DNA of 50,237 bases from Bacteroidota bacterium. Its GTDB lineage: Bacteria > Bacteroidota > Ignavibacteria > Ignavibacteriales > Ignavibacteriaceae. The stretch lies in the NCBI GenBank assembly GCA_021815365.1, contig JAKAGZ010000014.1:1-50237 (forward strand), read 5' to 3'. Positions 6,520 through 25,093 of this stretch are shown here, one piece after another (the stretch's first letter is position 1; each line of letters begins with the position of its first letter). The position numbers and the translations under genes were made by a program. Below the pieces are notes generated by a model. It did not search any database. It worked only from the letters and a program-made list of their open reading frames with translations, and was not told where the DNA came from.

Positions 6520-9033
6520 ATGATAGAACTGAATAAATTATTTCCCTGGCTTTCGATTAGAAGCAAACTTATAATTGCTTTTGTGGGGTTGTCTATTTTA
6601 CCAATTATTCTTGTAGGAATTTACGGGATAATCTCAAACACAAAGTCGATGAAAGCAAATGCCGTCCAAAAATTAAACCACGACCTTTCATTAATACAAG
6701 AAAATACAGCAAACCTGATGATTAATATTGAACGTGATTTAATGTTAATTCAGAAATCATATTTAAACAGCCGCATCCGCTCTGATATAAACAGCGGGGT
6801 CTATTCATCGGATAAAAAAAACATACAAATTCTGGCTGAAGAGCTTTTATCTTTTGCTGAAACCAGGGATATATATTATCAGCTAAGGATTGTTGACAAT
6901 AAAGGGAATGAAGTTGCACGAGTTCAGTCTGCTGCGTCATACGATTTAAAAAAAAGATATAGCATTGTACCTGCAAATAATCTTAGGCATATCCCTCAAG
7001 TCTATTATTTGTTGATGATAAAAGATTTGACGAAGAATCAGATTGCGCTTGCACCGGCGGAGCTGCTGAGTCCTGATAACAAACCAGTACCGGTTATAAG
7101 CTTTGCCATGCCGATTTATTTAGATGATAAGGTCATCGGAATTTTAATTGCCGACGTTTTCGTAAAAAATTTCTTTAAGACACTGCAGACATATAAGAGC
7201 CTGAATCCTGATGAGAAAGTAATCCTTGTCAGCGGCGATGGTCACTATCTTTATCATTCACAAAAGAAGAAAAACTGGAATAAGCTGCTTGCTGCAAGAG
7301 ACGAATTCAACTTGCAGCATGACTATCCCGAAGAGATTGCCAAACAGATTTTATCCGGCAAAGATTCTGTAATTACCCAGGGCAGTGAAGATATTATTTC
7401 TCACTCACCGCTTTTTCAGGGGTACTCATCAATTTATCGTACCGGCGTTGAACAAAATCTTGCAATTCAACTTTATCTTTTGGTTGCTGTTCCGAAAACT
7501 GCTATTCTGCAGCCGGTATATTTATATATATATACGTTTGCAGGTATTCTTGCGCTTTTCCTGATCATCTCAATCGTCCTGAGTCTATTGGCTACGAGGC
7601 ATTTTACAACTTCAATCGGAAAACTTACAGTAGGTGCTGAAACCATAACTAAAGGGAATTACAATCACCGCGTAAAAGTTGAAACACGGGATGAACTCGA
7701 GAAGCTTGCCGAACAGTTTAACCTGATGGCGCAGTCGCTTCACGAACATGAAGAAGAAATTCAGCGGTACAAAACTCATCTGGAAGAAATGGTTGAGTCA
7801 AGAACGGAAGAGCTTTTTGCCGAAAAGTCAAAGCTACAGGCAATACTCGACAATGTTCCTAGTGCTTTTCTGCTGCTTGATAAAGATTTGCGGATTCAGA
7901 CTGCAAGTGCGGCGTTCAAAACTATTACCGGATATAATATCGATGACGTGAAAGGTGAAAACTGCAGTAAAATTTTTGGTGATAACGGATTCTGCCAGGA
8001 ATGTATTTGCTTACAGGCAATTTCAAAAAATAAAATTAAAAGCTGCATATACTGCACAGACGATGACAGGCAGCACCAGCGCTACATTGAACGCGTTGCC
8101 ATTCCGATGAAAGCAAACGGAGAAGTAGTTGCCGTGTTAGCTGTTATTACGGATATAACAAAGCGAAAGCAGCTTGAAAATGTTTTGTTAAAAACTGAAA
8201 AGCTTGCCGCAACAGGAGAAATTGCGGCTTTTGTCGCTCACGAATTCCGCAACTCACTCACTTCAATTAAAATGATCCTTCAGCTTCTTGCTGAATCAAA
8301 TCATCTTGCTAAATCTGAAAAAAAATCTGTAACTGTTGCTCTAAAATCTACCAGCGAAATGGAAGATACGGTGACAAAACTTCTCAATTATGCTTACCCG
8401 GTTCCGATGAATTTCCAAACTGCGAGCATTGAAGATATTCTAAACGAAAGTCTCACGTTCGTTCAGCTTCGCGCCAATGAATCAAAAATTTCGATTAAGA
8501 AAGAAATTGAACGTTCAACCCCTTCAATTTTACTGGATGCATCGCGGCTAAAGGAAGCAATTATCAACATCTTATTAAATGCTGTTCAGGCGATAGATGA
8601 AAAAAGAAATTCGTTTGAGAGCATAGGACCTGATGAAGCTAGAGACACTGAAATTTTTATCTCCATCCGTAAAATGATTCTTCGAAGAACACTTCACGAT
8701 TTCAAACTGGAAGAAGCAGCGGGGTACACAAATACAGAAGATGTTGGCAGGAACAGGTATGAAATAATTTTACCTAAAGGAACTGAGTGCATCGTTTTAC
8801 AAATAACTGATTCGGGTATGGGCATTGACAGCTCAAATATTTCACGAATTTTTGACCCGTTTTTTACAACAAAAACCAACGGCACAGGACTGGGCTTGCC
8901 TATGGTTAAGAGAACAATTAATGCTCACCGCGGCATCATAACAGTAGAAAGCAAAAAAGGAACCGGCACTACTTTCAGTATATACCTTCCTTTATTGAAG
9001 GAAGGGCATCCGGCGCAGGAACAACTAATTTAA
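6520..9033 (+). CDS. Membrane-bound sensor histidine kinase (dCache-HAMP-PAS-HisKA-HATPase)
   Basis: An 837-residue kinase. TM1 is near 16-36 and TM2 near 334-357, enclosing a roughly 300-residue periplasmic sensor resembling a double Cache domain. HAMP follows to about 412, then a coiled coil and a PAS domain at about 440-555. The HisKA box has His574 in AHEFRNS. The ATPase domain shows an ILLNAVQAI N-box, DSGMGI and TNGTGLGLP. The PAS domain is unusually rich in cysteine (C482, C492, C495, C497, C509, C512), suggesting metal or redox sensing. The NtrC-type regulator starts 15 nt after the stop, so the two form one two-component system, probably controlling the downstream respiratory genes. 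The spacer 6259-6519 has no recognisable gene. Confidence 0.93.
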   Translation: MIELNKLFPWLSIRSKLIIAFVGLSILPIILVGIYGIISNTKSMKANAVQKLNHDLSLIQENTANLMINIERDLMLIQKSYLNSRIRSDINSGVYSSDKKNIQILAEELLSFAETRDIYYQLRIVDNKGNEVARVQSAASYDLKKRYSIVPANNLRHIPQVYYLLMIKDLTKNQIALAPAELLSPDNKPVPVISFAMPIYLDDKVIGILIADVFVKNFFKTLQTYKSLNPDEKVILVSGDGHYLYHSQKKKNWNKLLAARDEFNLQHDYPEEIAKQILSGKDSVITQGSEDIISHSPLFQGYSSIYRTGVEQNLAIQLYLLVAVPKTAILQPVYLYIYTFAGILALFLIISIVLSLLATRHFTTSIGKLTVGAETITKGNYNHRVKVETRDELEKLAEQFNLMAQSLHEHEEEIQRYKTHLEEMVESRTEELFAEKSKLQAILDNVPSAFLLLDKDLRIQTASAAFKTITGYNIDDVKGENCSKIFGDNGFCQECICLQAISKNKIKSCIYCTDDDRQHQRYIERVAIPMKANGEVVAVLAVITDITKRKQLENVLLKTEKLAATGEIAAFVAHEFRNSLTSIKMILQLLAESNHLAKSEKKSVTVALKSTSEMEDTVTKLLNYAYPVPMNFQTASIEDILNESLTFVQLRANESKISIKKEIERSTPSILLDASRLKEAIINILLNAVQAIDEKRNSFESIGPDEARDTEIFISIRKMILRRTLHDFKLEEAAGYTNTEDVGRNRYEIILPKGTECIVLQITDSGMGIDSSNISRIFDPFFTTKTNGTGLGLPMVKRTINAHRGIITVESKKGTGTTFSIYLPLLKEGHPAQEQLI

Positions 9034-9047
9034 ATTTGAGGACTAAA

Positions 9048-10457
9048 TTGAACGACCAAGCAAAGCATAAAGAAAAAATTCTTGTGGTAGATGATGACGC
9101 GAAAATAATTTTCGCCTTTCTCGAAGTACTTAAAAAGGACGGGTATTCTGCAATCACTGCAAGTGATGGTGAAGAAGCCATAAAGATTGCAAGTACTGAA
9201 AAAGTTGATTTAATTTTTATGGACATTTCTCTTCCGAAAATTACCGGGCTGGAAGTAATTAAAAAATTTAAGGAACAGGGGATAAATATTCCAACAATAA
9301 TTATTACAGGCTATGGCATTATGCAGAATGCTATTAAAGCAATGCAGCTCGGTGCCTTCGACTATTTGACGAAGCCGCTTGATATAAATAAAATCCGCGA
9401 ACTGACGAAGAAAGCTTTATTAAAATTAACGCCCCCGGGAAGTGACAAAGGTATTTCTTTTAATGCGAATATTGTAGACCGGTATGAAATAATCGGCAGA
9501 AGCCAGAAGATGCAGGAGATTTATAAACTGATAGGTATGGTTTCGACAACTCCCAATACAGTTTCAGTTCTAATTACTGGTGAGAGCGGCACAGGCAAGG
9601 AACTGGCTGCAAGAGCAATTCATGTCAGTACAAAGGGCAATGGTCATCCATTTATCGGGCTGAACTGCTCGACAGTGCCGGATAATCTTCTTGAATCCGA
9701 GTTGTTTGGTCATGAGAAAGGAGCCTTTACTGGTGCATCGGAACGCAAGCTTGGCAAGTTTGAACTTGCACAGGATGGAACAATTTTTCTTGACGAAATC
9801 GGAAATCTTTTACCAAGCCTTCAGCAAAAATTATTAAGAGTACTTCAGGAAAGGGAGTTTGAAAGGCTTGGCGGCGATATGCCGATAAAAGTTGGCGCAA
9901 GATTTATTGCAGCAACAAACCGCAACCTCGAGTCAGAAATAAAGAATGGAAATTTCAGGGAGGATTTATTCTTTCGTCTGAATGTTATTGAGATTAAACT
10001 TCCTCCTCTACGGGAGCGGGTTGAAGATATCCCGCTTCTGGCAAATTATTTTTTAACAAAATACAACGAGCACCTTAATAAAAATGTTAAGGGATTTTCT
10101 TCAGAAGCTGTTTTGCTTTTAAATTCTTACCAATTTCCAGGCAACGTTAGAGAGCTTGAAAACATAATTGAAAGAGCGATTATGCTGACAAGAGGTGAGG
10201 AAATTACAAGTGACCTTCTTGAAAAGATGCTCAATATAAATATTGCTGTTAAAGCACCTGTGCTTCCCATTAATGGTACTACATTCAGGCAGTCCCGCGA
10301 TTATATTCTGAACCTGTTTGAAAAGCAATTCGTTGAAGACAAACTTAAGACGCTGCATGGAAACGTTACCTCTGCTGCAAAGGCATCCGGTATGACACGG
10401 CAAAACTTCCAGCGCATGATGAAGAAGTATAATATCAAGGCGGAAGATTATAGGTAA
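9048..10457 (+). CDS. NtrC-family sigma-54-dependent response regulator
   Basis: A 469-residue regulator in three parts: a receiver with phospho-acceptor Asp59 (FMDISLP) and a KPL switch lysine, a sigma-54 AAA+ domain, and a C-terminal Fis-type helix-turn-helix (GNVTSAAKASGMTRQNFQRM). The AAA+ domain has Walker A GESGTGKE at 178-185, the sigma-54 contact loop GAFTGA at 225-230 and Walker B FLDEIGN. The GAFTGA loop is intact, so it should activate sigma-54 promoters. I chose the TTG at 9048 because a GAGGA site ends 5 nt before it; an in-frame TTG at 9036 would put that site inside the gene. It is the partner of the preceding kinase. Confidence 0.92.
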   Translation: MNDQAKHKEKILVVDDDAKIIFAFLEVLKKDGYSAITASDGEEAIKIASTEKVDLIFMDISLPKITGLEVIKKFKEQGINIPTIIITGYGIMQNAIKAMQLGAFDYLTKPLDINKIRELTKKALLKLTPPGSDKGISFNANIVDRYEIIGRSQKMQEIYKLIGMVSTTPNTVSVLITGESGTGKELAARAIHVSTKGNGHPFIGLNCSTVPDNLLESELFGHEKGAFTGASERKLGKFELAQDGTIFLDEIGNLLPSLQQKLLRVLQEREFERLGGDMPIKVGARFIAATNRNLESEIKNGNFREDLFFRLNVIEIKLPPLRERVEDIPLLANYFLTKYNEHLNKNVKGFSSEAVLLLNSYQFPGNVRELENIIERAIMLTRGEEITSDLLEKMLNINIAVKAPVLPINGTTFRQSRDYILNLFEKQFVEDKLKTLHGNVTSAAKASGMTRQNFQRMMKKYNIKAEDYR

Positions 10458-10683: not shown

Positions 10684-11067
10684 ATGACTAATAGACCAAA
10701 GATATTAGTTGTAGATAAGGATGAGAAAATTCTTTCTGCTTTCGGGGATTATTTGAGAAAGAAAAATTATTTGATGACAGGCGTTAATAGTGTTAAGACA
10801 GGGCTGAAAGCAATTCGTAAGCAGAGGTTTAATCTTCTGATAACAGATGTAAGAGTTAATTCCGAGTTTGGTGCAGGCTTTATCTCGCAGGCAAAAAAGA
10901 TTCATGTTAATCTGCCGGTAATTGCAATTACAAGCTTTCCGGATAAGATAACTGAATCCGATTTGAAAATGCATGGAGCAGACTACCTGTTTATAAAGCC
11001 TCTTGAATTGAACAAGCTTGATAAAGCTATCAACATCTGTCTGAAATCAAATTATAAAACATTTTGA
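10684..11067 (+). CDS. Stand-alone receiver-domain protein
   Basis: At 127 residues it is a CheY-like receiver with no output domain. Acidic residues sit at D11 and D13 (VDKDEK), the phospho-acceptor is Asp55 in LLITDVRVN, the switch Thr is T83 and the conserved Lys is K105 in FIKPLE. All phosphorylation residues are present. It lies between the sigma-54 regulator and the outer-membrane haem barrel gene, 36 nt from the latter, so it is probably co-expressed with the respiratory genes. It may be a phosphate sink or a second target of the upstream kinase. Confidence 0.85.
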   Translation: MTNRPKILVVDKDEKILSAFGDYLRKKNYLMTGVNSVKTGLKAIRKQRFNLLITDVRVNSEFGAGFISQAKKIHVNLPVIAITSFPDKITESDLKMHGADYLFIKPLELNKLDKAINICLKSNYKTF

Positions 11068-11102: not shown

Positions 11103-12482
11103 ATGGAATCAAATTCATTTACAAATTTTGTTCGTGTAATTTCAGAAAGAAAAAGTAAATTATCCTTTTTACTTTCTACAGTTGCAGTATTCATATTACT
11201 AACGGCTCCTTCCAGTTACGCAATTCCAAACTTTGCACGGCAGACTAATTTATCATGCAATTACTGCCATTACACTTTTCCCCAACTGACGAGCTTCGGC
11301 AGAATGTTTAAGCTTAACGGCTACACAACAACTTACATAGCAAATCTTGAAGCGGTATCACCCGACAGCCAGCGGGCTACACTAAAGATTCCGCAAAATT
11401 TTGCTTTTGGCGCTTTTGTAACATCATCTTTTACTTCGGTCAGCAAGCCCATACCCGGAACGGACGACAGGTTCGTTCTGTCCCCCGAAGAGATAAGCGT
11501 ATTTTTGTCCGGAGAGATTTCTCCTAAAATTGGAGGTTATGTTCAATTGTCTTACGCACAAAGTGATGGTGCAATTGGCCTCGACATGCTTGATATCAGG
11601 TATGCAAATCATACAAATCTTGGCGGCAAAGATCTTCTTTACGGGTTAACACTAAACAATATGCCTACTACGGAAGACCCGTGGAACACAACCCCAGTGT
11701 GGGGTTTTCCATATTTTTCATCTGAACCTGCTCCTGTACCAGCCGCATCCACATATCTTCAGATGGCTATGGGCGGTGTTGCAGGGTTAGGTGCTTATGC
11801 TTTATATAATAAATTAATTTATGCTAATGTAGCTGTTTATCATTCCTCACCGGCAGGAGTGTCTTATCCGCCAGACTCGACCTGGATGAGAAGCATAAAA
11901 GGGCTTGCGCCTTACTGGAGATTGGCAGTGCAACACCAATGGGGCAGTCAATATCTTGAAGTTGGTACCTTCGGAATTTTTTCAAGCATTTACCCTATGG
12001 GAATTTCCGGCACAACGAATAAATATACCGATGTAGGATTTGATGCTCAGTTTGAAAGTACAAACGACAACGGCGGATCCTGGATTTTCCATGCTGCTTA
12101 CATAACCGAAAAACAGAACCTGGACGCAACTTATAAAGCCGGCGGCTCTGTAAATACCAGCAACACGTTAAATTCTTTAAAGATGGACTTGTCGTATAAT
12201 TTTCCTGAATGGGCTTCACTTACTGCTGGCTACTTTAACGTCAGTGGTTCGGGCGATTCTGGTCTTTATGCACCCGGAGCTGTTACCGGAAGTTTAAGTG
12301 GTAAACCGAACAGCAGTGGAGAAATATTTCAGCTTACTTTCTTACCCTGGATGAACACTCAATTTGCTGTCCAATATACAGTGTACAATACTTTCAACGG
12401 CAGCGGCAGCAACTATGATGGCTCAGGAAGAAATGCTTCCGATAATAATACTTTATACATTAAGGGCTGGCTGGCTTTCTAG
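11103..12482 (+). CDS. Outer-membrane beta-barrel protein with one N-terminal c-type haem motif
   Basis: A 459-residue exported protein with a hydrophobic segment at about 22-36 and likely cleavage after SSYA (residue 40). Directly after it comes the haem-attachment motif CNYCH (52-56) in the context FARQTNLS...TFPQLTSFGRMFKLNGYT. The remainder is rich in alternating aromatic/polar strands and ends in phenylalanine (KGWLAF), typical of barrels inserted by the BAM complex. A protein with haem next to a barrel could be an electron conduit or a porin that docks periplasmic cytochromes. An AAGGAG site precedes the ATG. It heads a run of cytochrome genes. The exact function is unknown. Confidence 0.8.
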   Translation: MESNSFTNFVRVISERKSKLSFLLSTVAVFILLTAPSSYAIPNFARQTNLSCNYCHYTFPQLTSFGRMFKLNGYTTTYIANLEAVSPDSQRATLKIPQNFAFGAFVTSSFTSVSKPIPGTDDRFVLSPEEISVFLSGEISPKIGGYVQLSYAQSDGAIGLDMLDIRYANHTNLGGKDLLYGLTLNNMPTTEDPWNTTPVWGFPYFSSEPAPVPAASTYLQMAMGGVAGLGAYALYNKLIYANVAVYHSSPAGVSYPPDSTWMRSIKGLAPYWRLAVQHQWGSQYLEVGTFGIFSSIYPMGISGTTNKYTDVGFDAQFESTNDNGGSWIFHAAYITEKQNLDATYKAGGSVNTSNTLNSLKMDLSYNFPEWASLTAGYFNVSGSGDSGLYAPGAVTGSLSGKPNSSGEIFQLTFLPWMNTQFAVQYTVYNTFNGSGSNYDGSGRNASDNNTLYIKGWLAF

Positions 12483-12529: not shown

Positions 12530-12985
12530 ATGAAAATTAAATCAATAATTCAATCATTACTATTTTTAGCTTTTATTCTTTCCTTTGGATTTAAGCTTGA
12601 TAATCTTTCAAGGTTCAATATAACTATTCAACAGAATAAAAATTCACAAAAGGCTAATAATGGCATTGGTCCCATCAAAGAAGTAAAGCTCGGAAGCATT
12701 GACAAGCGGCTTGTCGAAAAAGGCAGCGATATTTTTAACGATAAATGCTCTGCTTGTCATGATATTGATGATGTAAACCTGGCGCCCGCACTAAGGGGTG
12801 TTACAAAGGTTCTCTCTCCTGTTTTCATCATGAACTATTTGATGAACACTACAGAAATGCAGCAGAAAGATCCCTATGTCAAAAGTCTGATGCAGCAATG
12901 GAAAAAGGTGCCGGTTATGAAGGATCAGCATTTGAAAAAAGACGAAGCCAGGGCTGTGCTTGAATTTCTAAGGACAAAAAATTAG
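12530..12985 (+). CDS. Monohaem cytochrome c
   Basis: A 151-residue exported cytochrome with an N-terminal hydrophobic segment (about 5-22) that could be a signal peptide or an anchor. It has one CSACH haem site at 73-77. The downstream part (LAPALRGV, a Met-rich MNTTEMQQ stretch, then PVMKDQHLKKDEARAVLEFL) fits a class I cytochrome c fold with a Met as distal ligand. An AAGGAG site is 6-7 nt upstream of the ATG. Its position between the haem barrel and the multisubunit complex suggests that it carries electrons in the periplasm. Confidence 0.85.
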   Translation: MKIKSIIQSLLFLAFILSFGFKLDNLSRFNITIQQNKNSQKANNGIGPIKEVKLGSIDKRLVEKGSDIFNDKCSACHDIDDVNLAPALRGVTKVLSPVFIMNYLMNTTEMQQKDPYVKSLMQQWKKVPVMKDQHLKKDEARAVLEFLRTKN

Positions 12986-13145: not shown

Positions 13146-13658
13146 ATGAAAAATAAACTATTAGTTTTTATTCTTATCCTGATCGGAGCAGTTGCCGGGT
13201 TCTTTATTTTGAGCTTTCATTCAAAAAGCAGTGCTGATAATTATCCGGTTCCTTTCAGCCATTATGTTCACACTACCGTGCACAAGATAAAATGCGTCAA
13301 CTGCCACCGCGGAGTTGAAACGCGGGAGCTTGCCGGAATTCCTAACATAGATTACTGCAGTATGTGCCATTCAACTTTGATAAACTCAAAATCAGAGAGA
13401 GAAAAAATAATTTACCAATTAGTGAAAGAGAATAAACCGATTCAGTGGAAAGTCTATTATCAGGTTCCCGATTACGTTTTCTTCTCTCACAGAAGACACG
13501 TTAAGCTCGGCAAGCTTGAATGCACAGATTGCCATGTTGATATGACGAAGCAGGATTCACCAGATCTGAAAGGCTTCAGCCAGATAATTATGCCGCTTTG
13601 TTTTAACTGTCATCAGCGGAAAAATATAACAACTGACTGCGGCGACTGCCATCACTGA
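13146..13658 (+). CDS. Pentahaem cytochrome c subunit (ActA/QrcA-like)
   Basis: A 170-residue protein with an N-terminal membrane anchor or signal (about 4-23) and five CxxCH haem sites at 50-54, 71-75, 126-130, 152-156 and 165-169. HYVHTTVH and FFSHRRH supply likely distal histidines. This cytochrome c7/c3-like layout resembles the haem subunits of alternative complex III (ActA, five haems) and of the Qrc complex (QrcA). It starts the six-gene complex operon and is followed 53 nt later by the molybdopterin-type subunit. No clear SD is seen; the GC-rich hairpins lie just upstream. Confidence 0.88.
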   Translation: MKNKLLVFILILIGAVAGFFILSFHSKSSADNYPVPFSHYVHTTVHKIKCVNCHRGVETRELAGIPNIDYCSMCHSTLINSKSEREKIIYQLVKENKPIQWKVYYQVPDYVFFSHRRHVKLGKLECTDCHVDMTKQDSPDLKGFSQIIMPLCFNCHQRKNITTDCGDCHH

Positions 13659-13711
13659 TGAGAAACCGGGAGATGAAAAATTTTAAAATGATTACCAGGA
13701 GATTATACTGA

Positions 13712-15958
13712 ATGGATATTAACAGGCGAGACTTTGTAAAGCTGGTTGGCGGATCCTTATTCGGATTAGCGATCGGAAGTGCTGCAGACGCAGTTCTTAA
13801 ACTTCCTAAAAGCGCCGAGCCTGTTCTTTACAACGGACCGAGGATTGAATCCTGGAAACTTACTGCGTGCACTAAATGCCCGGGGGGATGCAGTCTTAGG
13901 ATTAGACTGATTGACGGGCTGCCGGTTCAGGCATTCGGCAATCCGAAATCTCCAATAAATGAAGGCGGAATTTGTCCGCTCGGACTTGCATCGGTAGCTG
14001 ATTTGTATCATCCTTCACGTCTTACAAGTCCGGTTAAAAAAGTGAACGGAGAATTTAAACCAATTTCCTATGACGAGGCTTTCAAAATTCTTTCTGATAA
14101 TCTGAAGAGAATTATTTCTGAAAAAAAAGAAAATGAAGTTTTTATAGTCGCACAAACCGAATCAAAACTTCGCTCGGATTTGTTTAAGAAATTTTCCAGT
14201 GTGTCTAACTTTAAGAATTTAATTGTAGATGGATTTAAAGAAACAAGTGCATATCCTTTTAAGAAAGTCACCGGTGAAGTTCCCGATTTCATTGATTGGG
14301 ATAAATGCGATTACCTTTTGAACTTCGGTTCGCAAATGACAGAGATTTCTCAGAACCCTCTTTACTTCACTCGTAAGATAAATGAATACAGAGCAAAAGG
14401 ATTCAGAATCACTGCCGTTCAGCCAAGGCTTACGCCAGGCGTCTCAAAGCTTGATGACTGGATTCCGCTTCAGCCTGATCAGTTTGGAATTTTTGCTTTG
14501 GGAATTGCTTACGTTCTTCTTAAAGATGAACGGTACGACAAAAATTTTGTCGAGAAGAATTTCACAGGCTTCAATGAATTCAAAGATTATGTTCTTGAAA
14601 ATTATATCCCGGAAAAGGTAGAAATGCTGACGGGAATTTCTTCAGATAAAATTTTAGAGACAGGAAGGAAATTTGAAAGAGCTTCAGTACCGGCAGCTTA
14701 TTTTGATGCATCTGTTCTCTATAACTCAAACGGCACAACAAATGCTGCTGCGATAATTGCCCTGAATGCGTTGAAGAGTTTCAAAGGCTTCGGAAAAATA
14801 AAAGACAATCCCTTTTCTTCAGGGGTTAAGAATGAAACAAAGCAAATTGAGGGGGTCACTTTTGCAAGCTTGAATGAGAAGCTTTCAGGCTATAACGGAA
14901 TACAGGTGCTTATAATTGCCGGCAGTAATTTCGTTTTCAATAATCCTAACGCTGAATCTTTGAAGAAGCAGCTTGGCTCAGTTCCTTTCATAGCAAGCTT
15001 CTCATCTTTTGTTGATGAGACTTCAGAGTTTGCTCATCTGATTATTCCCGACCACAGTTTCCTCGAAAGGCTGGATTTGCTGACTGATGAATCAATGGGG
15101 GCTCCTTCAGCAACAGTTCTTCAGCCTGTCGTTAACAAGCCTTTTTTCAAAACAGAAGACACCGGTGATGTAATTATTTCTTTGATGAAAGAAATAAAAC
15201 CGGATATCAAACTTTCTTACGAAAATTACTCCGATTATGTGAAGCTGTGGGCAAAGAAAATTTACTCCGGCAAAGAAGGAATTCTGATAAATCAAAACAA
15301 GCCGACTGTAATTGAGCAGGGCTTGAGAAAAATCGGCTGGTCAACAGAGCAGATTGGAAGCTTTGACGATTACTGGGACAGTTTAATGGACGCAGGCGGC
15401 TGGTGGAATCCGTTTGGGGAAAAAGTATCATTCAATCCGGAGATTAAATTTAAAAATGTTTTTAACTATAAATCATTCCCTATGATTAGCAGTTCACCTC
15501 AGCCGAAAAATAAACTGCGTCTGAATATCTTCAGAAGAAATTTAGACTACAAAGGAAATATGAGCATCTATCAGGTCCTTGTTGAGCAATTCGGAAATAA
15601 CTGGAAAGTCTTTTACAAATTGTACGCGGAGATAAATCCGCAAACTGCACGAAGCTTATCATTGACGGATAGAAGCGAAATAATTTTGAAGACAAGCAAA
15701 GGAAAATTTCCTGTAGTTTTAGTTTTCAACCCCACTGTAAAGCCAGACAGCATTGATGTTCCCTTCGGGTTGGGACATACAGTCCTGGGTGACACAAGCG
15801 GCGTCAATCCTCTTTATTTTGCAGAGAACAAATTTGATCCAGAGACTGGCTTGCCTTCATTTACAGAAACTTTAGTCGAGATTCAGGGAGCGCAATTAAG
15901 AAGTGGTTTGCTGTCACAGTTGAGTATTTCAGAGAAAAAACAAGTTGCAGAGAATTAA
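13712..15958 (+). CDS. Molybdopterin-oxidoreductase-type subunit with Tat signal (ActB/QrcB-like)
   Basis: A 748-residue protein of the complex iron-sulfur molybdoenzyme superfamily. A twin-arginine signal (NRRDFVKLVGG) begins at residue 4, so it is exported folded. The N-terminal [4Fe-4S] site is intact: C53, C56, C60 and C88. I see no Cys, SeCys or Ser in the usual metal-ligand position around residues 160-200, which reads GFKETSAYPFKKV. In ActB and QrcB the molybdenum site is likewise lost and the subunit is structural or electron-transferring. Unlike canonical ActB (about 1000 residues) the ferredoxin part is not fused but encoded by the next gene, 14 nt downstream. Loss of the cofactor is inferred from motifs. 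Confidence 0.85.
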   Translation: MDINRRDFVKLVGGSLFGLAIGSAADAVLKLPKSAEPVLYNGPRIESWKLTACTKCPGGCSLRIRLIDGLPVQAFGNPKSPINEGGICPLGLASVADLYHPSRLTSPVKKVNGEFKPISYDEAFKILSDNLKRIISEKKENEVFIVAQTESKLRSDLFKKFSSVSNFKNLIVDGFKETSAYPFKKVTGEVPDFIDWDKCDYLLNFGSQMTEISQNPLYFTRKINEYRAKGFRITAVQPRLTPGVSKLDDWIPLQPDQFGIFALGIAYVLLKDERYDKNFVEKNFTGFNEFKDYVLENYIPEKVEMLTGISSDKILETGRKFERASVPAAYFDASVLYNSNGTTNAAAIIALNALKSFKGFGKIKDNPFSSGVKNETKQIEGVTFASLNEKLSGYNGIQVLIIAGSNFVFNNPNAESLKKQLGSVPFIASFSSFVDETSEFAHLIIPDHSFLERLDLLTDESMGAPSATVLQPVVNKPFFKTEDTGDVIISLMKEIKPDIKLSYENYSDYVKLWAKKIYSGKEGILINQNKPTVIEQGLRKIGWSTEQIGSFDDYWDSLMDAGGWWNPFGEKVSFNPEIKFKNVFNYKSFPMISSSPQPKNKLRLNIFRRNLDYKGNMSIYQVLVEQFGNNWKVFYKLYAEINPQTARSLSLTDRSEIILKTSKGKFPVVLVFNPTVKPDSIDVPFGLGHTVLGDTSGVNPLYFAENKFDPETGLPSFTETLVEIQGAQLRSGLLSQLSISEKKQVAEN

Positions 15959-15971
15959 GTAAGGAGAATTT

Positions 15972-16661
15972 ATGCCAAGATATGGAATGATAATAGACCT
16001 GAACAAATGCAATCAATGCGAAGCATGTATTACTGCTTGCAAGCTTGAAAATAATGTTCAGATAGTTTCAAAAGAAAATGCAGATATGGGGAGGGCAATG
16101 TTCTGGATGAATATGCTGACAATAAGCTATACCAGAAATTATCCTGATATCCGTTCTGAAAGCCTGCCTATGCTCTGTATGCAATGCGATGAACCTCCCT
16201 GCATAAAAGTTTGTCCTGTTAGAGCAACTTACAAAAGAGATGACGGCATAGTTGCGCAGATTTATCCGCAGTGCATCGGATGCCGCTACTGCATGGCGAA
16301 CTGCCCTTACACAGTTAAAGTTTTTAATTGGTTTAAAGATGAACAGCCGGTTGAAAATGAAAAAACCTGCAACCCTGACGTCTCGGTTCGTCCAAAGGGT
16401 GTGGTTGAGAAATGCACTTTCTGCATTCATCGGTTACAGAAAGCAAAAGAACAAGCGAAAGCAGAGCATAGAAAACTCCGCGAGGAAGATTATGTGCCCG
16501 CCTGTGCGGAAGTCTGTGCAGCACAAGCAATTCACTTTGGAGATCTGGATGATCCAAACAGCAATGTATCCAAAGCTATGCACGATTACAGGAAATTCAC
16601 TTTGCAGGAAGAACTCGGCACAAAACCTAAAGTTTATTACTTAAGTGCTAAGACTGAGTAA
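15972..16661 (+). CDS. Four-cluster [4Fe-4S] ferredoxin subunit
   Basis: A 229-residue subunit of the DmsB/PsrB/QrcC type. The first cluster motif has C13, C16, C19 and C23. Further sets are CMQCDEPPCIKVCP, CIGCRYCMANCP and CTFC...PACAEVC, giving the usual 16 ligands for four cubane clusters. It has no signal peptide and would be exported with the Tat-bearing partner. It would pass electrons between the membrane quinone subunit, the catalytic-type subunit and the haems. An AAGGAG site precedes the ATG, and the next gene starts 2 nt after the stop. Confidence 0.92.
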   Translation: MPRYGMIIDLNKCNQCEACITACKLENNVQIVSKENADMGRAMFWMNMLTISYTRNYPDIRSESLPMLCMQCDEPPCIKVCPVRATYKRDDGIVAQIYPQCIGCRYCMANCPYTVKVFNWFKDEQPVENEKTCNPDVSVRPKGVVEKCTFCIHRLQKAKEQAKAEHRKLREEDYVPACAEVCAAQAIHFGDLDDPNSNVSKAMHDYRKFTLQEELGTKPKVYYLSAKTE

Positions 16662-16663
16662 AG

Positions 16664-18049
16664 ATGTTCAAAGATGTTAATAATAAAAAGGTTTTCAAGA
16701 TGAAGAATCATCACTATCCGGATGAAGATGAAATATTACTTAGACCGATATACAAAACCGGCAAAGGATTCTACGCACTTGCGGCTGCTTTGTCTGCAAT
16801 CTTTTTGTTTGGGATTTACAGGTACATCCGGCAGCTTATTTTTGGGCTCGGTGAGACGGGAATGAATGAACCGGTTAGCTGGGGATTTTATATTATCAGC
16901 TTTGTTTTTTTCATTGGTATTTCTCATGCAGGAACTCTCATCTCAGCTATACTTCGTTTATCGAAAGCTGAATGGCGAAGGCCAATAACAAGAATGGCTG
17001 AGGTTATTACCGGCATTGTGTTGTTAATAGGCGGGATTCATCCAATCATAGATTTAGGAAGACCGGATAGAATTCTTCACATCTTTGAACGGGGGCGCCT
17101 TCAGTCGCCTCTCCTCTGGGATGTAACAAGTATTACCGCTTATTTTACTGCTTCAACAATTTACCTTTACCTCCCTTTGATACCGGATATTGCTTTGCTG
17201 CGCGACAGGGGTAATAAGCTTCACAAGCTTTATAAAATTTTGGCATGGGGCTACCAGGGAACCGAAAAGCAAAAGCACATACTTGAAAGAGCAATCAGCA
17301 TTTTAATGGTGATGGTAATCCCGATCGCAGTCTCGGTTCATACTGTTATTTCGTGGATTTTTTCGATGACACTTCAGCCAGGATGGCACAGCACAATCTT
17401 TGGTCCTTACTTTGTTGTCGGAGCTATCTTCTCCGGAATTGCTGCACTGGTAATTGTAATGATTGCTTTCAGAAAAGCATATCATTTTGAAGATTATCTT
17501 AAAGAAATTCATTTCAGGTATCTCGGAACGCTGCTGCTTGTAATGTCGCTCCTTTGGTTCTATTTTACTTTTGCGGAATACCTGACGACATTTTACGGAC
17601 ATGAGCCGCCGGAGATGAGAGTGTTCCTCTACAAATTTGCAGATGGTTACGCTCCATATTTTTGGCTGATGGTAGTTTGTAATTTTATTATCCCCGTTGT
17701 TTTCCTAAGCAACAAAAAGCTGAAGACAATCGGCGGAGTTTTAATTTCGTCCATCGCTGTTGTTATCGGGATGTGGCTGGAAAGATTAATCATCATTGTC
17801 CCTTCGATGGCGAATCCAAGACTTCCTTATCCAACGGGAATTTATGTCCCGTCACTTACTGAAATTTCACTTTTTGCCGCAGCGGTTTCAGCTTTTGTTT
17901 TAGGCTTTATGGGATTCTCGAAATTGTTCCCTTTAATTTCTGTTTGGGAAATTAAAGAAGGACGGAAAGAAAGTGTCAGCATCGTTACCGAAAGATTGAA
18001 CGAATATCTTCCATCAACCCGATCAACTGAAGCATTAAAAGAAATTTGA
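16664..18049 (+). CDS. NrfD/ActC-type quinone-interacting membrane subunit
   Basis: A 461-residue protein with about ten hydrophobic helices. GISHAGTLISAILRL in an early helix, and a block with a VHTVISWIF element followed by PGWHSTIFGPYFVVGAIFSG, match the ActC/ActF and PsrC group, where such residues line the quinone pocket or a proton path. It would exchange electrons with menaquinone. There is one NrfD-type gene here, whereas alternative complex III normally has two (ActC and ActF). A second possible start is the ATG at 16700 with an AAGG upstream; the first start lies 2 nt from the ferredoxin stop and suggests coupling. Confidence 0.9.
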   Translation: MFKDVNNKKVFKMKNHHYPDEDEILLRPIYKTGKGFYALAAALSAIFLFGIYRYIRQLIFGLGETGMNEPVSWGFYIISFVFFIGISHAGTLISAILRLSKAEWRRPITRMAEVITGIVLLIGGIHPIIDLGRPDRILHIFERGRLQSPLLWDVTSITAYFTASTIYLYLPLIPDIALLRDRGNKLHKLYKILAWGYQGTEKQKHILERAISILMVMVIPIAVSVHTVISWIFSMTLQPGWHSTIFGPYFVVGAIFSGIAALVIVMIAFRKAYHFEDYLKEIHFRYLGTLLLVMSLLWFYFTFAEYLTTFYGHEPPEMRVFLYKFADGYAPYFWLMVVCNFIIPVVFLSNKKLKTIGGVLISSIAVVIGMWLERLIIIVPSMANPRLPYPTGIYVPSLTEISLFAAAVSAFVLGFMGFSKLFPLISVWEIKEGRKESVSIVTERLNEYLPSTRSTEALKEI

Positions 18050-18056
18050 GGAGATT

Positions 18057-18314
18057 ATGTTTAAAAAAAATAACAAAGACCGGAATATAAATTTTATACA
18101 AGGGCTGACACTCATTTTAATCTGGTTTCTTGCCTCCGGCATGACTGCGTTGTTTATAAATTTAGTTAATGTATCCTACCAGGTGGATGACCATCAATCT
18201 GCATCAGTCGCAATCAGCATAATTGCTGTTGTAATTTTCTGGGTTTTAGCCGGCATATTAACTTATGTTTTTGTTGGTCTTCATCGCGGCATCAAAAAGG
18301 AAGGAAAGCAATGA
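18057..18314 (+). CDS. Small two-helix membrane protein of the respiratory complex
   Basis: An 85-residue protein with two hydrophobic helices (about 15-37 and 50-74) and charged ends. A GAGGAG site lies 4 nt before the ATG, and the gene overlaps the tetrahaem gene by 4 nt (ATGA). I do not recognise a family. Its place equals that of the small membrane subunits of alternative complex III (ActD region), but it is much shorter than ActD and shows no DUF3341 sequence. It is probably an accessory subunit stabilising the NrfD subunit. Confidence 0.7.
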   Translation: MFKKNNKDRNINFIQGLTLILIWFLASGMTALFINLVNVSYQVDDHQSASVAISIIAVVIFWVLAGILTYVFVGLHRGIKKEGKQ

Positions 18315-19507
18315 AAACAAAAATTTTATTAGTATTCTCGTCATTAATTTTTCTGGCTGTGTTTTGTTTTCTTAATGGAAAAACTATTGTTGTGAAGAAT
18401 ATTCAAAGCAGACAAAATGATCAGCAAACCTTACCGCAAAATCCATTAAACGGCAGAGTTGTATTTGAGCAGAAGGGCTGCATCAACTGCCACGCAATAA
18501 ACGGCTACGGCGGAAAGACTGCCCCGGATTTTGGCGAGCATAATTTTTTCGGCGGCGATTATGATTTGATCTCCGCTATGTGGAATCATTCACCCGAAAT
18601 GTTTAAGCAGATGAATGCAAAGAATATTAAGAAGCAGGAAATCAGCGCTGAAGATTTTCGAAGTCTCAGATACTTTCTGAATTTTTTGCGATACCTTGGC
18701 GGCAGCGGGAATATTATTAATGGACAAAAACTATTTTCCAAAATGAAATGTAACGAATGCCATTCGGTGGGAAAAGTCAGCTCAAATAAAATCAGCCTGA
18801 ACAAAATGGGAGTTTACGCTTCGCCGCTGTTCCTTGCACAGATTATGTGGAACCACGCTGTGAAGATGCAGAAGATGCAAAAACAATCCGGGATAAAAGT
18901 TCCCTTGTTTAAAGATGATGAGTTTGCAGATTTATTTTCTTATATCGAATCAGTAGGCATTAATAGCAAAAGAGAAAAAGTTTACATGCTGCCAGGCAAC
19001 CCTGTGAAAGGAGAAAAATTATTCAAGTCCAAGAAATGTTTTTACTGCCACGAACAGAATCATATCGGTCCCGATTTAACAAAATATAATTTCAACCAAA
19101 GCGTAACTAAAATTGCCGGAATGATGTGGAACCATGCATCCAATATGCAGTTGGCAATGATAGAAAGTAAAATTTCCTATCCTGTATTTAAGGATGATGA
19201 GATGGCAAATCTCATTTCCTACCTTTACTTCAAAAATCAGAATCCGGTTGACGGTTCCGCTGAAAAAGGCAAGAAGCTGATATCTGAAAAAGGCTGCATT
19301 AACTGCCACAGCAAAGGCAATTCCTATAATATTCCGGCTGTAAGTGTAATCGGACCATTCCATAGCGCTGATACTTTCTTCAGCGAACTTTGGAATCATC
19401 TGCCGTTAATGCAAAAAAAATTATATGTGAAAGGTAAAGCACTTCCCAGGCTGTTGCCTTCGGATGTAAAATCGTTGTATCTTTACTTCAACAGAAAAGA
19501 ACGGTAG
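18311..19507 (+). CDS. Tetrahaem cytochrome c made of four tandem monohaem units
   Basis: A 398-residue exported protein with an N-terminal hydrophobic segment (about 4-21). Four haem sites CxxCH lie at 57-61, 147-151, 243-247 and 329-333, spaced 86-96 residues. Each is followed about 30 residues on by a WNH...M motif (91, 180, 273, 361) that likely provides the distal Met. A PxFKDDE[FM]A segment recurs in units 2 and 3. The protein thus arose by repeated duplication of one class I cytochrome domain. It is the last subunit of the complex operon and would pass electrons to or from soluble carriers, like ActE. Confidence 0.88.
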   Translation: MKTKILLVFSSLIFLAVFCFLNGKTIVVKNIQSRQNDQQTLPQNPLNGRVVFEQKGCINCHAINGYGGKTAPDFGEHNFFGGDYDLISAMWNHSPEMFKQMNAKNIKKQEISAEDFRSLRYFLNFLRYLGGSGNIINGQKLFSKMKCNECHSVGKVSSNKISLNKMGVYASPLFLAQIMWNHAVKMQKMQKQSGIKVPLFKDDEFADLFSYIESVGINSKREKVYMLPGNPVKGEKLFKSKKCFYCHEQNHIGPDLTKYNFNQSVTKIAGMMWNHASNMQLAMIESKISYPVFKDDEMANLISYLYFKNQNPVDGSAEKGKKLISEKGCINCHSKGNSYNIPAVSVIGPFHSADTFFSELWNHLPLMQKKLYVKGKALPRLLPSDVKSLYLYFNRKER

Positions 19508-19651: not shown

Positions 19652-20248
19652 ATGAATTACAAATTAGTTACAGCGTTTTCATTTACTCTGATTGCACTAG
19701 CGATGAACGCTGCACTGGCGGGCGATATCAAAGGCAAAGTTCATCTTGAAGGAAGTTCAAACAGTGCTGGTATTCTCGTATACATTGAACACGTAGACAG
19801 TTCATTTGCACCTCCTCAGAAGCATGCTATAATGGATCAGAAAGATTTAATGTTTGTTCCTGAAATTCTGCCGGTTTTAGCAGGTACAACAGTAGATTTT
19901 CTTAACAGCGACGATGTACTCCATAATGTTTTTACGCCTTCAGGGTGTGCCGGAAGGTTTAATCTCGGCACTTGGCCTAAAGATAAAATACGTTCACACA
20001 CCTTTACAAAAGCTGACTGCTTTGCAATTCTATTGTGCGATGTTCATCCGGATATGCAAGCATGGATTGCAGTTCTTCAAAATCCTTACTTTACTTTTAC
20101 AGATAAAAGCGGGGAATATGAAATCAAGAATATTCCTCCAGGAAGTTATGTTTTAAAAGTGTGGTGCCCCTTTTATGAAGTTAGGTCGTCTTCGGTTTAT
20201 GTTAAGGACGCAGGCATAATTCAAAAAGATTTTAACCTGAAACGATGA
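19652..20248 (+). CDS. Exported cupredoxin-domain (plastocyanin-like) protein
   Basis: A 198-residue protein with a signal peptide cleaved after ALA (residue 23). The middle part is a cupredoxin with type-1 copper ligands H91 (in DDVLHNVF), then C129, H132 and M135 in LLCDVHPDMQAW, the plastocyanin order His...Cys-His-Met. Residues about 145-195 (SGEYEIKNIPPGSYVLKVW) form a carboxypeptidase-regulatory-like beta-sandwich. A blue-copper electron carrier after the cytochrome complex would be a logical redox partner. It is separated from the operon by a repeat, so it may have its own transcript. After it, 20249-20394 shows only AT-rich spacer. Confidence 0.87.
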   Translation: MNYKLVTAFSFTLIALAMNAALAGDIKGKVHLEGSSNSAGILVYIEHVDSSFAPPQKHAIMDQKDLMFVPEILPVLAGTTVDFLNSDDVLHNVFTPSGCAGRFNLGTWPKDKIRSHTFTKADCFAILLCDVHPDMQAWIAVLQNPYFTFTDKSGEYEIKNIPPGSYVLKVWCPFYEVRSSSVYVKDAGIIQKDFNLKR

Positions 20249-22881: not shown

Positions 22882-24317
22882 GCTCATTACTGATTGAAAA
22901 TTTTGCAAAAACAAAAATCCTTTGCACACTGGGACCAGTTACCGGCACTTCGGAGACAATTAAAAAATTAATTCTTTCCGGCATGGATGGAGTCCGGCTG
23001 AATTTTTCACACGGCGATTACGGCTTCTATAAAAATATTTTTGATGAAATTCACAAAGCCTGTGTTGATGAAAAAACACCCCTTTCAATTTTAGTTGATC
23101 TGCAGGGTCCGAAGATCAGGATTGGCGATCTGACCAAACCCGAAATTGAAATCTCCAAAGGAAACAAAATAGAAATTACCACTGAAGATGTAAAAGGCAC
23201 TGCTAAATTAATTTCTACTTCCTATAAATTTCTTGCAGAAGATGCGCAGGTTGGTGATCCGGTGCTGATAGATGACGGACTTCTCCGGCTGAGGATCATT
23301 GAAAGGAAAGAAAAGTCTGTTGTATGTATTATCGAGAACGGCGGAATTTTAAAACCGAAGAAAGGTATGAACCTTCCGGGAATGAAACTATCAACTCCAT
23401 CAGTCACTGAAAAAGATTACAGGGATCTCGAATTTGCTCTTCGACACAGAGTTGATTACGTTGCTTTATCTTTTGTAAGAAGCGCCAACGATATAATTCT
23501 TCTGCGTGAATGGATGAGAAGTAAAAACTCGCTCCGTCCCATAATTGCAAAGATAGAGAAAAAAGAAGCCTGCGATAATTTTGACGAAATTGTTGAAACA
23601 GCAGACGGCATTATGATTGCGCGCGGTGATCTCGGTGTTGAACTGCCGCCGCAGGATGTTCCGATAATTCAGAAAGAGATCATCAGGAAGTGCAATTCAA
23701 AAGGCAAGCTGGTAATTACTGCGACGCAGATGCTTGATTCGATGATACACAACCCTATCCCGACAAGGGCTGAAGCATCCGATGTCGCTAATGCTGTCCT
23801 CGACGGGACTGACGCTGTTATGCTCAGCGGTGAAACTTCGGTGGGAAATTTTCCGCTTGAAACTGTACGGATTATGAATGACATCGTTAAAAATGCCGAA
23901 CAATATTTTCTTCCGTTAAAAGATGATGAATTTGAAACACCTAAATCTACCGAAGAAAATCTTTTCGATTCGGCAGGCAGAGCTATTGCTGCAATGAGCA
24001 GGCAAATAAATGCTGCTGCAATTGTTGTGTTCACATACCAGGGCAGAACCGCTATGAATCTTGCAAAGTACAGACCAAAAGCAAAAATTATTGCTGTCAC
24101 TAACAGCTTTGAAACGATGAACAATCTTTGTCTTAGGTGGGGAGTTGCTTCAATGTTCTATGACGATATAGTTAAAGAGCATTTAATGATAGATGAAGTT
24201 AAAAAAATGATCACAGAAGGGGGACACGTGAAAGCAGGCGACATAGTGATTTTCACAGCAGGTGCGCCGTACTCCGAAAAAAGCAGGGCAAACTGGCTCA
24301 GGTTTGAAGTGATATGA
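22878..24317 (+). CDS. pyk: Pyruvate kinase
   Basis: A 479-residue glycolytic enzyme converting phosphoenolpyruvate and ADP to pyruvate and ATP. Motifs: TKILCTLGP and GVRLNFSHG at the N-terminus, DLQGPKIRIG, the catalytic IAKIEKKEACDN segment and the substrate block ITATQMLDSMI with PTRAEASDVANAVLDG. It ends with the allosteric-type C-terminal domain (FTYQGRTA). Length is normal for the bacterial form. It overlaps the upstream protease and the downstream zeta-like gene by 4 nt each, an unusual three-gene coupling. Confidence 0.96.
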   Translation: MSSLLIENFAKTKILCTLGPVTGTSETIKKLILSGMDGVRLNFSHGDYGFYKNIFDEIHKACVDEKTPLSILVDLQGPKIRIGDLTKPEIEISKGNKIEITTEDVKGTAKLISTSYKFLAEDAQVGDPVLIDDGLLRLRIIERKEKSVVCIIENGGILKPKKGMNLPGMKLSTPSVTEKDYRDLEFALRHRVDYVALSFVRSANDIILLREWMRSKNSLRPIIAKIEKKEACDNFDEIVETADGIMIARGDLGVELPPQDVPIIQKEIIRKCNSKGKLVITATQMLDSMIHNPIPTRAEASDVANAVLDGTDAVMLSGETSVGNFPLETVRIMNDIVKNAEQYFLPLKDDEFETPKSTEENLFDSAGRAIAAMSRQINAAAIVVFTYQGRTAMNLAKYRPKAKIIAVTNSFETMNNLCLRWGVASMFYDDIVKEHLMIDEVKKMITEGGHVKAGDIVIFTAGAPYSEKSRANWLRFEVI

Positions 24318-25093
24318 ACAACACTTATAAACCGGTTGTTTATTTAATTGCAGGTCCTAACGGTGCAGGAAAAACAACCTCAGCTTTCAAATTGCTGCCT
24401 GAAAATATTGGTATACAGGAATTCGTTAATGCAGATACAATTGCAGCAGGTTTATCCGCTTTTAATTCCAGTTCCGTTGCATTTCAGGCGGGCAGAATAT
24501 TATTGAACAGAATCAAAGAGCTTGCAGCAAAAAATAAAAATTTTGCTTTTGAATCTACTTTATCATCTAAATCTTTTTACCCTTTTTTAAAGAACTTAAA
24601 GAACAAGGGGTATGTAATAAATTTAATTTATATATGGCTAAGAAATGAAACGATAGCTGTTGAAAGAGTAAAACAACGTTATGCGTCAGGCGGACAACAT
24701 TTTATTCCTGATGATATTGTTAAAAGAAGATATTTCAGAAGCATAAATAATTTAGTAAGCTTATATATCCCAATCTCAGATAATTGGAAAATTTATGATA
24801 ATTCTTATATTTCAATTGAACTTATTGCTGAAAAGGGAAACGATGATAGAATTAAAATTTATTCAGCCAACAGGTTTAATAAAGTTATGAATCAAAATGT
24901 AAAAGAACCGGAAGTAAAATATTCTGCCGATAAAATCACACAGGCAATGAAGGAAGCAATTGACGAGGAGCTTGAGAAAAGGAAAAAATTAGGATTGCCA
25001 ATTGTCGTCTGGAAGGATGGAAAAGTAGTGCACCTGACAGGCGAACAATATGATGCCCTGAAAAAGATCGAGCGGGAAAAAGAAAACCGGTAA
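24314..25093 (+). CDS. Zeta-toxin-like P-loop kinase
   Basis: A 259-residue protein with the zeta-toxin fold signature. Walker A GPNGAGKT is at 14-21, then VNADTIAAGLS, FAFESTLSS in the substrate-binding strand and a late Arg pair (KRRYFRS). Zeta toxins phosphorylate UDP-N-acetylglucosamine and stop cell-wall synthesis. Related chromosomal kinases exist without an epsilon antitoxin, and none is visible next to this gene. Residues about 210-259 form a charged tail containing LGLPIVVWKDGKVVHL, which recurs in this subfamily. The start overlaps pyk by 4 nt. Its substrate and toxicity are unproven. Confidence 0.82.
   Translation: MNNTYKPVVYLIAGPNGAGKTTSAFKLLPENIGIQEFVNADTIAAGLSAFNSSSVAFQAGRILLNRIKELAAKNKNFAFESTLSSKSFYPFLKNLKNKGYVINLIYIWLRNETIAVERVKQRYASGGQHFIPDDIVKRRYFRSINNLVSLYIPISDNWKIYDNSYISIELIAEKGNDDRIKIYSANRFNKVMNQNVKEPEVKYSADKITQAMKEAIDEELEKRKKLGLPIVVWKDGKVVHLTGEQYDALKKIEREKENR

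Follow-up and report, generated by a model that had tools for sequence, protein, structure and literature searches.

Two characterised complexes combine a cofactor-less subunit of the MopB fold with a membrane subunit of the NrfD type, and the two operate in opposite directions (PMC6303296). One is alternative complex III (ACIII), encoded by ActABCDEF in organisms of the Rhodothermus, Flavobacterium and Roseiflexus type and presumed to be a quinone:cytochrome c oxidoreductase. The other is Qrc (QrcABCD) of sulfate reducers, whose membrane subunit QrcD is placed beside HybB and HmcC and away from ActC (PMC6303296). Here we describe a six-gene locus at positions 13146-19507 of a 50,237-nucleotide stretch, hereafter the window (contig JAKAGZ010000014.1 of assembly GCA_021815365.1), from a Bacteroidota bacterium of the Ignavibacteriaceae. 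The products, for which we have coined the names QA to QF, resemble parts of both complexes. The Q complex is probably a membrane-bound oxidoreductase between menaquinone and periplasmic cytochrome c that represents a third lineage and that, in this lineage, serves an outer-membrane conduit of the Cyc2 type.

An open reading frame check of the window found the six genes head to tail on one strand, and searches of Pfam and NCBIfam concur on the types of the parts. An earlier, sequence-only reading of this DNA had proposed the order pentahaem cytochrome, Tat-exported MopB-type subunit, ferredoxin, NrfD, two-helix protein and tetrahaem cytochrome, and each of these frames was recovered where it had been placed (lengths in amino acids, aa):

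13146..13658, + strand: QA, a pentahaem cytochrome c, QrcA/ActA-like (170 aa; five CxxCH; NCBIfam match QrcA).
13712..15958, + strand: QB, a MopB-fold subunit with a twin-arginine (Tat) signal (748 aa; RRDFVK at the start; NCBIfam match QrcB).
15972..16661, + strand: QC, a ferredoxin-type subunit with four [4Fe-4S] sites (229 aa; 16 cluster Cys; NCBIfam match QrcC).
16664..18049, + strand: QD, an NrfD-type quinone-reactive membrane subunit (461 aa; match to 6lod_C, E 2.4e-68; tree and residues below).
18057..18314, + strand: QE, a two-helix membrane protein (85 aa; conserved columns).
18311..19507, + strand: QF, a tetrahaem cytochrome with four class I-like haem repeats (398 aa; four CxxCH, with WNHxxxM in each repeat).

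The sole library names that these subunits attract are sub-threshold matches to QrcA, QrcB, QrcC, DsrP and QrcD, the four Qrc scores being 97.4 bits against a cut-off of 180 (QrcA), 245 against 440 (QrcB), 269 against 400 (QrcC) and 43 against 570 (QrcD). The complex is therefore easily filed under another one.

The locus recurs. Among 80 genomes of the family, QB was found at E <= 1e-40 in 13, eight of which, the source genome included, carry a close form (at least 60% identity) and five a distant one, in which QB is about 30% and QD about 70% identical over the full length; the six-gene arrangement is thus not due to chance. Across the phylum, 218 of 296 sampled genomes hold an ActC/QD-like protein (E <= 1e-60), and an identity of at least 70% was reached in only two (the source genome and G078), the next among the matches listed standing at 41%. 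When named genome contigs were searched with a QD alignment, 240 relatives were obtained, and the analysis continued with the best 80 (loci L032-L111). All of these best 80 are titled as metagenome-assembled genomes, and their labels, some of which may be wrong, name at least 15 phyla, including Ignavibacteriota, Acidobacteriota, Myxococcota, Calditrichota, Nitrospirota, Fidelibacterota, Eiseniibacteriota, Krumholzibacteriota, Methylomirabilota, Binatota, Lentisphaerota, Planctomycetota, Poribacteria and KSB1. Gene order could be read at 52 of the 80 loci, those whose flanks extend 4 kb or more ahead of QD and 2.5 kb or more behind it. A-B-C-D stood in order in 51 of them and the remaining locus read A-C-D-E. 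QE and QF were present together in 38 (32 as ABCDEF and 6 as EFABCD), and the incomplete loci comprised five with QE only, five with QF only and three with neither; because the QE and QF queries included sequences from the same loci, their detection there is no independent test of homology. The gene-order search that had been proposed for Ignavibacteria, carried here beyond that class, therefore returned a recurrent module. A tblastn search with the ActF and ActD part of the source genome's own operon gave no match in the fetched flanks of any of the 80 QD loci and a match at 15 of 15 canonical act loci, in agreement with the reported absence of both proteins. A monohaem protein matching the ActE part lay near 8 of the 80 loci.

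Phylogenies were computed for the B, C and D subunits. The careful trees used chosen subsets of the collected rows (59 of 117 for NrfD, 48 of 89 for MopB and 48 of 90 for the ferredoxins), unevenly sampled, and were rooted on ActB or QrcD by choice. The QD rows came from 47 of the 80 loci. As QB we took frames followed on the + strand by QC or QD, which set aside 10 further QB-like frames, and the 89-row MopB tree excludes loci L090, L095 and L104; as QC we took frames sharing 50% identity or more with QC or QC2. In the careful NrfD tree, 27 QD rows formed one clade (support 99/98) and 16 ActC rows another (100/100), and with the root on QrcD these two clades were sisters (95/85). The 10 QrcD rows (100/100) sat on a very long branch, and six other NrfD rows stood apart. 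A quick tree of all 117 rows also separated QD from ActC and QrcD and left its nearest group unsettled. The window's QD is 36% identical to the ActC of its own genome. For the other two subunits a different pattern emerged. QB grouped with QrcB against ActB and the split form ActB1 (100/100), and the QrcB rows, a single clade (100/100), were nested, so that QB without QrcB occupied one side of the tree in 0% of 200 bootstrap trees. QC and QrcC were similarly united against ActB (100/100), with QrcC nested and QC without QrcC on one side in 0%. The fork that joins QrcB to particular QB rows is weak (58/52). A further NrfD clade was seen in the phylum at loci L213-L218, outside any act operon and accompanied by a ferredoxin of 304-327 aa and a small monohaem cytochrome; its NrfD protein has about 436 aa, and L218 carries two tandem copies.

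Because B and C fall on the Qrc side, with Qrc nested among them, and D falls on the ActC side, the subunits have two different histories. The simplest reading of these trees would be that Qrc drew its B and C arm from the Q family and its membrane subunit from elsewhere. Alternatively, QrcD may merely have diverged rather than been exchanged. The sequence-only reading had described a mixture of ACIII and Psr/Qrc features from a possibly early-branching complex. The mixture of ACIII and Qrc is what the trees display, the Psr likeness is one of general fold only, and "early-branching" is ill suited to a family whose QD clade is sister to ActC and whose QB and QC radiation encloses QrcB and QrcC. 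In the subunit phylogenies that had been proposed as a check, QD and QB/QC lie outside ActC and ActB, and QD outside QrcD as well.

Comparison of cofactor ligands and quinone-site residues adds to this picture. The window's QC has 16 cluster Cys and one unconserved Cys, and the cluster Cys are kept across 64 QC rows, the exceptions being a single Ser at C77 and a pair of truncated rows. Position C104 in the third ferredoxin motif is Cys in 64/64 QC and 10/10 QrcC and Thr in 15/15 ActB and 1/1 split ActB2; the Thr of ActB would mark a 3Fe-4S site. In the membrane subunit, for which the roles of NrfD residues in quinone binding and gating are taken from PMC8076601, the position of ActC His139 is Asp in 48/48 QD and 9/10 QrcD and His in 16/16 ActC, and that of ActC Asp253 is Ile or Val in 48/48 QD as against Asp in 16/16 ActC. 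The equivalents of Ser164, Asp169 and Arg395 are each kept in 48/48 QD, and the Asp169 position is also Asp in 16/16 ActC. The number of haems in QA was considered as a discriminating character and dropped, since QrcA-type rows in L222-L235 likewise have five CxxCH.

Could the Q complex, then, be no more than a divergent ACIII from which ActD and ActF have been lost and to which haems have been added? It shares with ACIII a pentahaem cytochrome, a MopB-fold and ferredoxin module and an ActC-like NrfD subunit, and the sister relationship of QD and ActC, the identity of QD to the ActC of the same genome and the published label of a like cluster as ACIII-like (PMC9386147) all fit such an origin. 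It departs from ACIII in having an unfused ActB counterpart, no ActF or ActD, a four-haem QF in place of the monohaem ActE, and separate QB, QC and QD clades. The position of QB and QC on the Qrc side, the uniform replacements of the ActB Thr, His139 and Asp253, and a QE that cannot be aligned to ActD make this explanation unlikely. The source genome also possesses a canonical ACIII operon, overlooked in the sequence-only reading, on contig 104 (fused ActB, ActC, ActDE, ActF, SCO and oxidase genes), so that the Q complex is a second and different complex in this organism. The ACIII of iron oxidisers (actAB1B2CDEF; PMC4643136, PMC8788666) also resembles it, in a split ActB with CX2CX3CX27C and in the presence of Cyc2 in the same organisms; it differs in its seven genes, which include actD and actF, a distinction made from description and not from sequence. 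In Ferriphaselus, as described, the cyc2 and act locus tags lie apart, unlike the arrangement reported below.

A Qrc proper, that is, a menaquinone reductase of the sulfate-reducer type, is less probable still. The A-B-C-D order is shared, the best NCBIfam matches of A, B and C are QrcA, QrcB and QrcC, QC and QrcC have 16 Cys each, and QrcB and QrcC are nested among QB and QC. All four subunits nevertheless miss the Qrc cut-offs, QD by the widest measure (43 of 570 bits); QD and QrcD form separate clades; QE and QF are additional; and the genomic partners differ. On the features compared, the locus belongs neither to ACIII nor to Qrc, and it very likely works like them. By sequence, it is a third lineage beside ACIII and Qrc, neither canonical ACIII nor Qrc. 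A similar cluster is already in print. Cluster 4 of the MBNT15 bacterium SHF-111, described as ACIII-like (PMC9386147), has ActABCD and a four-haem ActE-like protein, a likeness by description only, and counter-oriented ferredoxin and NrfD-like operons such as we find near L066, L068 and L069; unlike the present account, the available text treats it as ACIII-like, with no phylogeny or mention of Cyc2. The suggestion that the complex is undescribed thus holds for its distinctness from ACIII and Qrc and fails in so far as a four-haem cluster had been reported. In the portions of the literature available to us we found neither a treatment as a separate family nor a pairing with Cyc2; a paper on KSB1 genomes, PMC10732223, in which ACIII, NrfD and Cyc2 are mentioned, may hold one.

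The fold of QB raises the further question of a true molybdoenzyme of the Psr/Arr type, for which no substrate can be named. The QB model (predicted local distance difference test score, pLDDT, 86.1; predicted template modelling score, pTM, 0.87) has the MopB fold and superposes on ArrA (TMq 0.74) and on Nap, Fdh and PsrA (Z from 31.2 to 23.7 among the matches listed). QB also keeps a CX2CX3CX27C [4Fe-4S] motif in 60/62 rows. The Mo-free ActB gives superpositions of much the same quality (Z 24.4-28.1), so the fold does not decide function. At the columns of the Mo ligand (Cys, Sec, Ser or Asp), no residue is conserved among 45 aligned QB, in accord with the earlier impression that the ligand is absent; Ser179 of the window's QB lies opposite a Cys of 7bkb_D in a phmmer alignment, and this residue varies among relatives. 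We therefore regard a molybdoenzyme as very improbable. The [4Fe-4S] motif of QB was rejected as a distinguishing mark, CxxCxxxC being present in 11/13 QrcB, 7/15 ActB and 2/2 split ActB1, that is, in most QrcB (L223-L235) and about half of ActB (L202-L221); the source genome's own ActB is without it. QrcB has been described as cofactor-less (PMC6303296), and CX2CX3CX27C has been reported for the ActB1 of iron oxidisers (PMC4643136).

The four units of QF show 20-34 identities over 82-86 aligned residues in six pairwise comparisons (z 8.6-15.6, 200 shuffles each), and together with the WNHxxxM in every unit this bears out the proposed four-unit duplication. A Foldseek search of the PDB with the QF model (pLDDT 89.2) gave no match at E < 0.001, the better rows being single cytochrome c-type folds. 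An alignment of QE from the window with 29 relatives (30 sequences) has five invariant columns. Two identities were tried for QE and rejected, as a reduced form of ActD (hhalign probability 0.7%, E 0.076) and as an NrfD protein (Pfam 20 bits against a cut-off of 25.8, attributed to helix composition). In the KSB1 loci L038, L040, L045 and L056 a second four-haem QF-type gene follows a three-haem cytochrome.

The six genes are part of a larger unit. On either side of them the window contains:

6520..9033, + strand: sensor histidine kinase (Cache, HAMP, PAS and HisKA; Pfam), possible regulator of the cassette.
9036..10457, + strand: sigma-54 dependent NtrC-type response regulator (PF00158 222.7 bits, PF00072 100.5 bits).
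10684..11067, + strand: single-domain response regulator (PF00072 54 bits).
11103..12482, + strand: Cyc2-type fused monohaem cytochrome-porin, a putative outer-membrane Fe(II)/extracellular electron conduit (motif).
12530..12985, + strand: class I monohaem cytochrome c, periplasmic carrier (PF00034 35.1 bits, cut-off 21.3).
19652..20248, + strand: cupredoxin-like protein with a carboxypeptidase-regulatory-like domain (weak, sub-cut-off Pfam matches; LHN and CxxHxxM copper-ligand pattern seen in the sequence).

Among relatives in the family, the cassette begins with the response regulator, which is followed by the Cyc2-type cytochrome-porin, the monohaem cytochrome, QA-QF and the cupredoxin-like protein. 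The Cyc2-type gene, the monohaem cytochrome and QA adjoin QB in all six of the fetched contigs of the family that extend to that side (L019-L024), and a response regulator of 125-127 aa with a like start stands beside the Cyc2-type gene in five of them (L019 and L021-L024, L020 being the exception). Both G016 and G020 have the cassette divided between two contigs, and a cupredoxin-like homologue occurs close to the Q genes at 9 of the 80 loci. The genes at 11103-12482, 12530-12985 and 19652-20248 belong to the same unit as QA-QF. The sequence-only reading was thus right about the six genes and drew the unit too narrowly at 13146-19507; the strongest hint of function, the Cyc2-type gene that precedes the pentahaem gene by two places, was overlooked. 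Genes that resemble the sensor kinase gene in length and start are present upstream in L024 and in L023 as well, the one in L023 being interrupted by the contig end. A scan of the window for -24/-12 (sigma-54) sites, prompted by the NtrC-type regulator, found 13 matches against 23.8 expected, and promoter and terminator scans were at chance level. Elsewhere in the window, a protein with a zeta-toxin/AAA kinase-like domain (24314-25093) adjoins pyruvate kinase.

Cyc2 is a cytochrome-porin known as an Fe(II) oxidase, and its family motif consists of AXPXFAR[Q/K][T/Y] before CXXCH with PXL after it (PMC8406198). The gene at 11103-12482 matches (AIPNFARQT NLS CNYCH YTF PQL), and its product has 459 aa, where 365 aa or more and a fused beta-barrel are expected of a Cyc2; it had no PDB sequence match at E < 0.1, and its barrel is putative. 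By this motif the gene falls in the Cyc2 family as a putative Fe(II) oxidase or conduit. Cyc2-type genes were present in the fetched flanks of 9 of the 80 QD loci, seven by the motif (L034, L035, L036, L039, L042, L062 and L073) and two with FSR for FAR (L061 and L094). Six of the nine lie outside the window's close Q clade, L062 among them still within the window's family. Near control NrfD genes there were none in 20 loci (14 act-type and 6 others). Moreover, a Cyc2 of the operon type (at least 60% identity) occurs in exactly the eight of 80 family genomes that have the close Q form; some Cyc2-like match was found in 43 of the 80. The source genome has two more Cyc2-type genes, on contig 11 (L265:8815-10152), where the gene adjoins a monohaem cytochrome, and on contig 46 (L273:9430-10683). 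In G017, the stretch L266:5849-10679 holds a Cyc2-type paralogue next to genes for a monohaem cytochrome, a Rieske protein and a cytochrome b that carries two fused haem motifs, so that here a bc-type complex is the neighbour of Cyc2 in a parallel pairing. Inspection of these neighbourhoods indicates that Cyc2-cytochrome modules do adjoin quinone-reactive complexes.

From the observed gene content, conservation, clades, cofactor-ligand patterns and linkage, we infer that the six products assemble into one complex. QC and QD would pass two electrons to or from menaquinone close to the periplasmic face of QD. Electrons would pass along the four [4Fe-4S] sites of QC, and perhaps the QB cluster, to or from the haems of QA and the four-haem QF arm, and between this QF/QA arm and the monohaem cytochrome at 12530 or the cupredoxin; QD may move protons. 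The quinone and gating residues of QD, the cluster Cys of QC, the kinship with QrcA, QrcB and QrcC and the A-B-C-D order argue for such an oxidoreductase. The Cyc2-type gene in six of six family contigs, its frequency at QD loci as compared with the controls and its co-occurrence in eight genomes suggest that, in this lineage, the complex takes the place of complex III for the Cyc2-type outer-membrane cytochrome-porin.

As to direction, electron uptake seems slightly favoured, with a flow from Cyc2 through cytochrome c to menaquinone like that suggested for the ACIII of iron oxidisers. Cyc2 is present, and in Sideroxydans ES-1 growth on Fe(II) goes with up-regulation of ACIII, which was assigned there to reverse electron transport (PMC8788666). 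The opposite, outward route, in which menaquinol is oxidised and electrons leave through periplasmic cytochromes to Fe(III), humics or oxidases, with Cyc2 or a multihaem cytochrome as the exit, is a serious contender that we place somewhat short of even. QD is nearest ActC, a quinol-oxidising subunit; loci of the second clade have NapC/NirT-type, tetrahaem and 9- to 11-haem cytochromes beside them; the ACIII-like clusters of MBNT15 were placed under possible iron-reduction mechanisms (PMC9386147); and the source genome has two clear heme-copper oxidases. It is disfavoured by the known role of Cyc2 as an Fe(II) oxidase (PMC8406198) and by the fact that the genome already has an ACIII operon of the canonical type, linked to an oxidase cluster. 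On contig 98 of the source genome, a 698-aa open frame (179271-181148) has several weak COX1 matches and is unlike both clear heme-copper oxidases. Second-clade loci of Ignavibacteria often carry Rieske and cytochrome b genes as well as NapC/NirT-type and 9- to 11-haem cytochromes. At eight Ignavibacteria loci (L043, L047, L053, L055, L057, L059, L060 and L093) the neighbours of the Q genes include cytochrome b and a cytochrome with 11 or 12 haems, and most of these loci also have Rieske and NapC/NirT-type genes, so that there are two quinone-reactive systems per cluster.

Several points weaken or limit the preferred reading. RuBisCO was not found in the source genome, which favours export and weakens a reading in terms of reverse electron transport for the Calvin-Benson-Bassham cycle, other routes of fixation being unsearched. 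Asp at the His139 position occurs both in quinone reductases and in quinol oxidisers (PMC8076601), so this residue sets no direction. The Cyc2 loci L034-L036 belong to genomes that also supplied three of the six family contigs. The QD and control loci are unlike in length (1.23 Mb vs 0.39 Mb) and in phylum, the controls being from this phylum only, and the Cyc2 control is therefore modest. Finally, Cyc2 stands at only 9 of the 80 loci and many others have multihaem cytochromes or Rieske and cytochrome b, so Cyc2 is not the general partner of the Q complex; the varied neighbours mark it as a general quinone/cytochrome unit with changing partners.

More tentatively, the Q family might be the parent radiation from which the Qrc of sulfate reducers arose, a link between ACIII and Qrc and a third equivalent of complex III that is spread through uncultured phyla and that in several of them would form the quinone end of a Cyc2 uptake chain. 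On this view Qrc retained the periplasmic B and C subunits and replaced its membrane subunit, and the Q family held on to the NrfD subunit that is sister to ActC. A third widespread lineage, with a Qrc-like arm and an ActC-like membrane subunit, lets one ask which subunit sets the direction of electron flow and the coupling to protons. It also provides a concrete candidate for how Cyc2 chains may reach the quinone pool outside the Proteobacteria.

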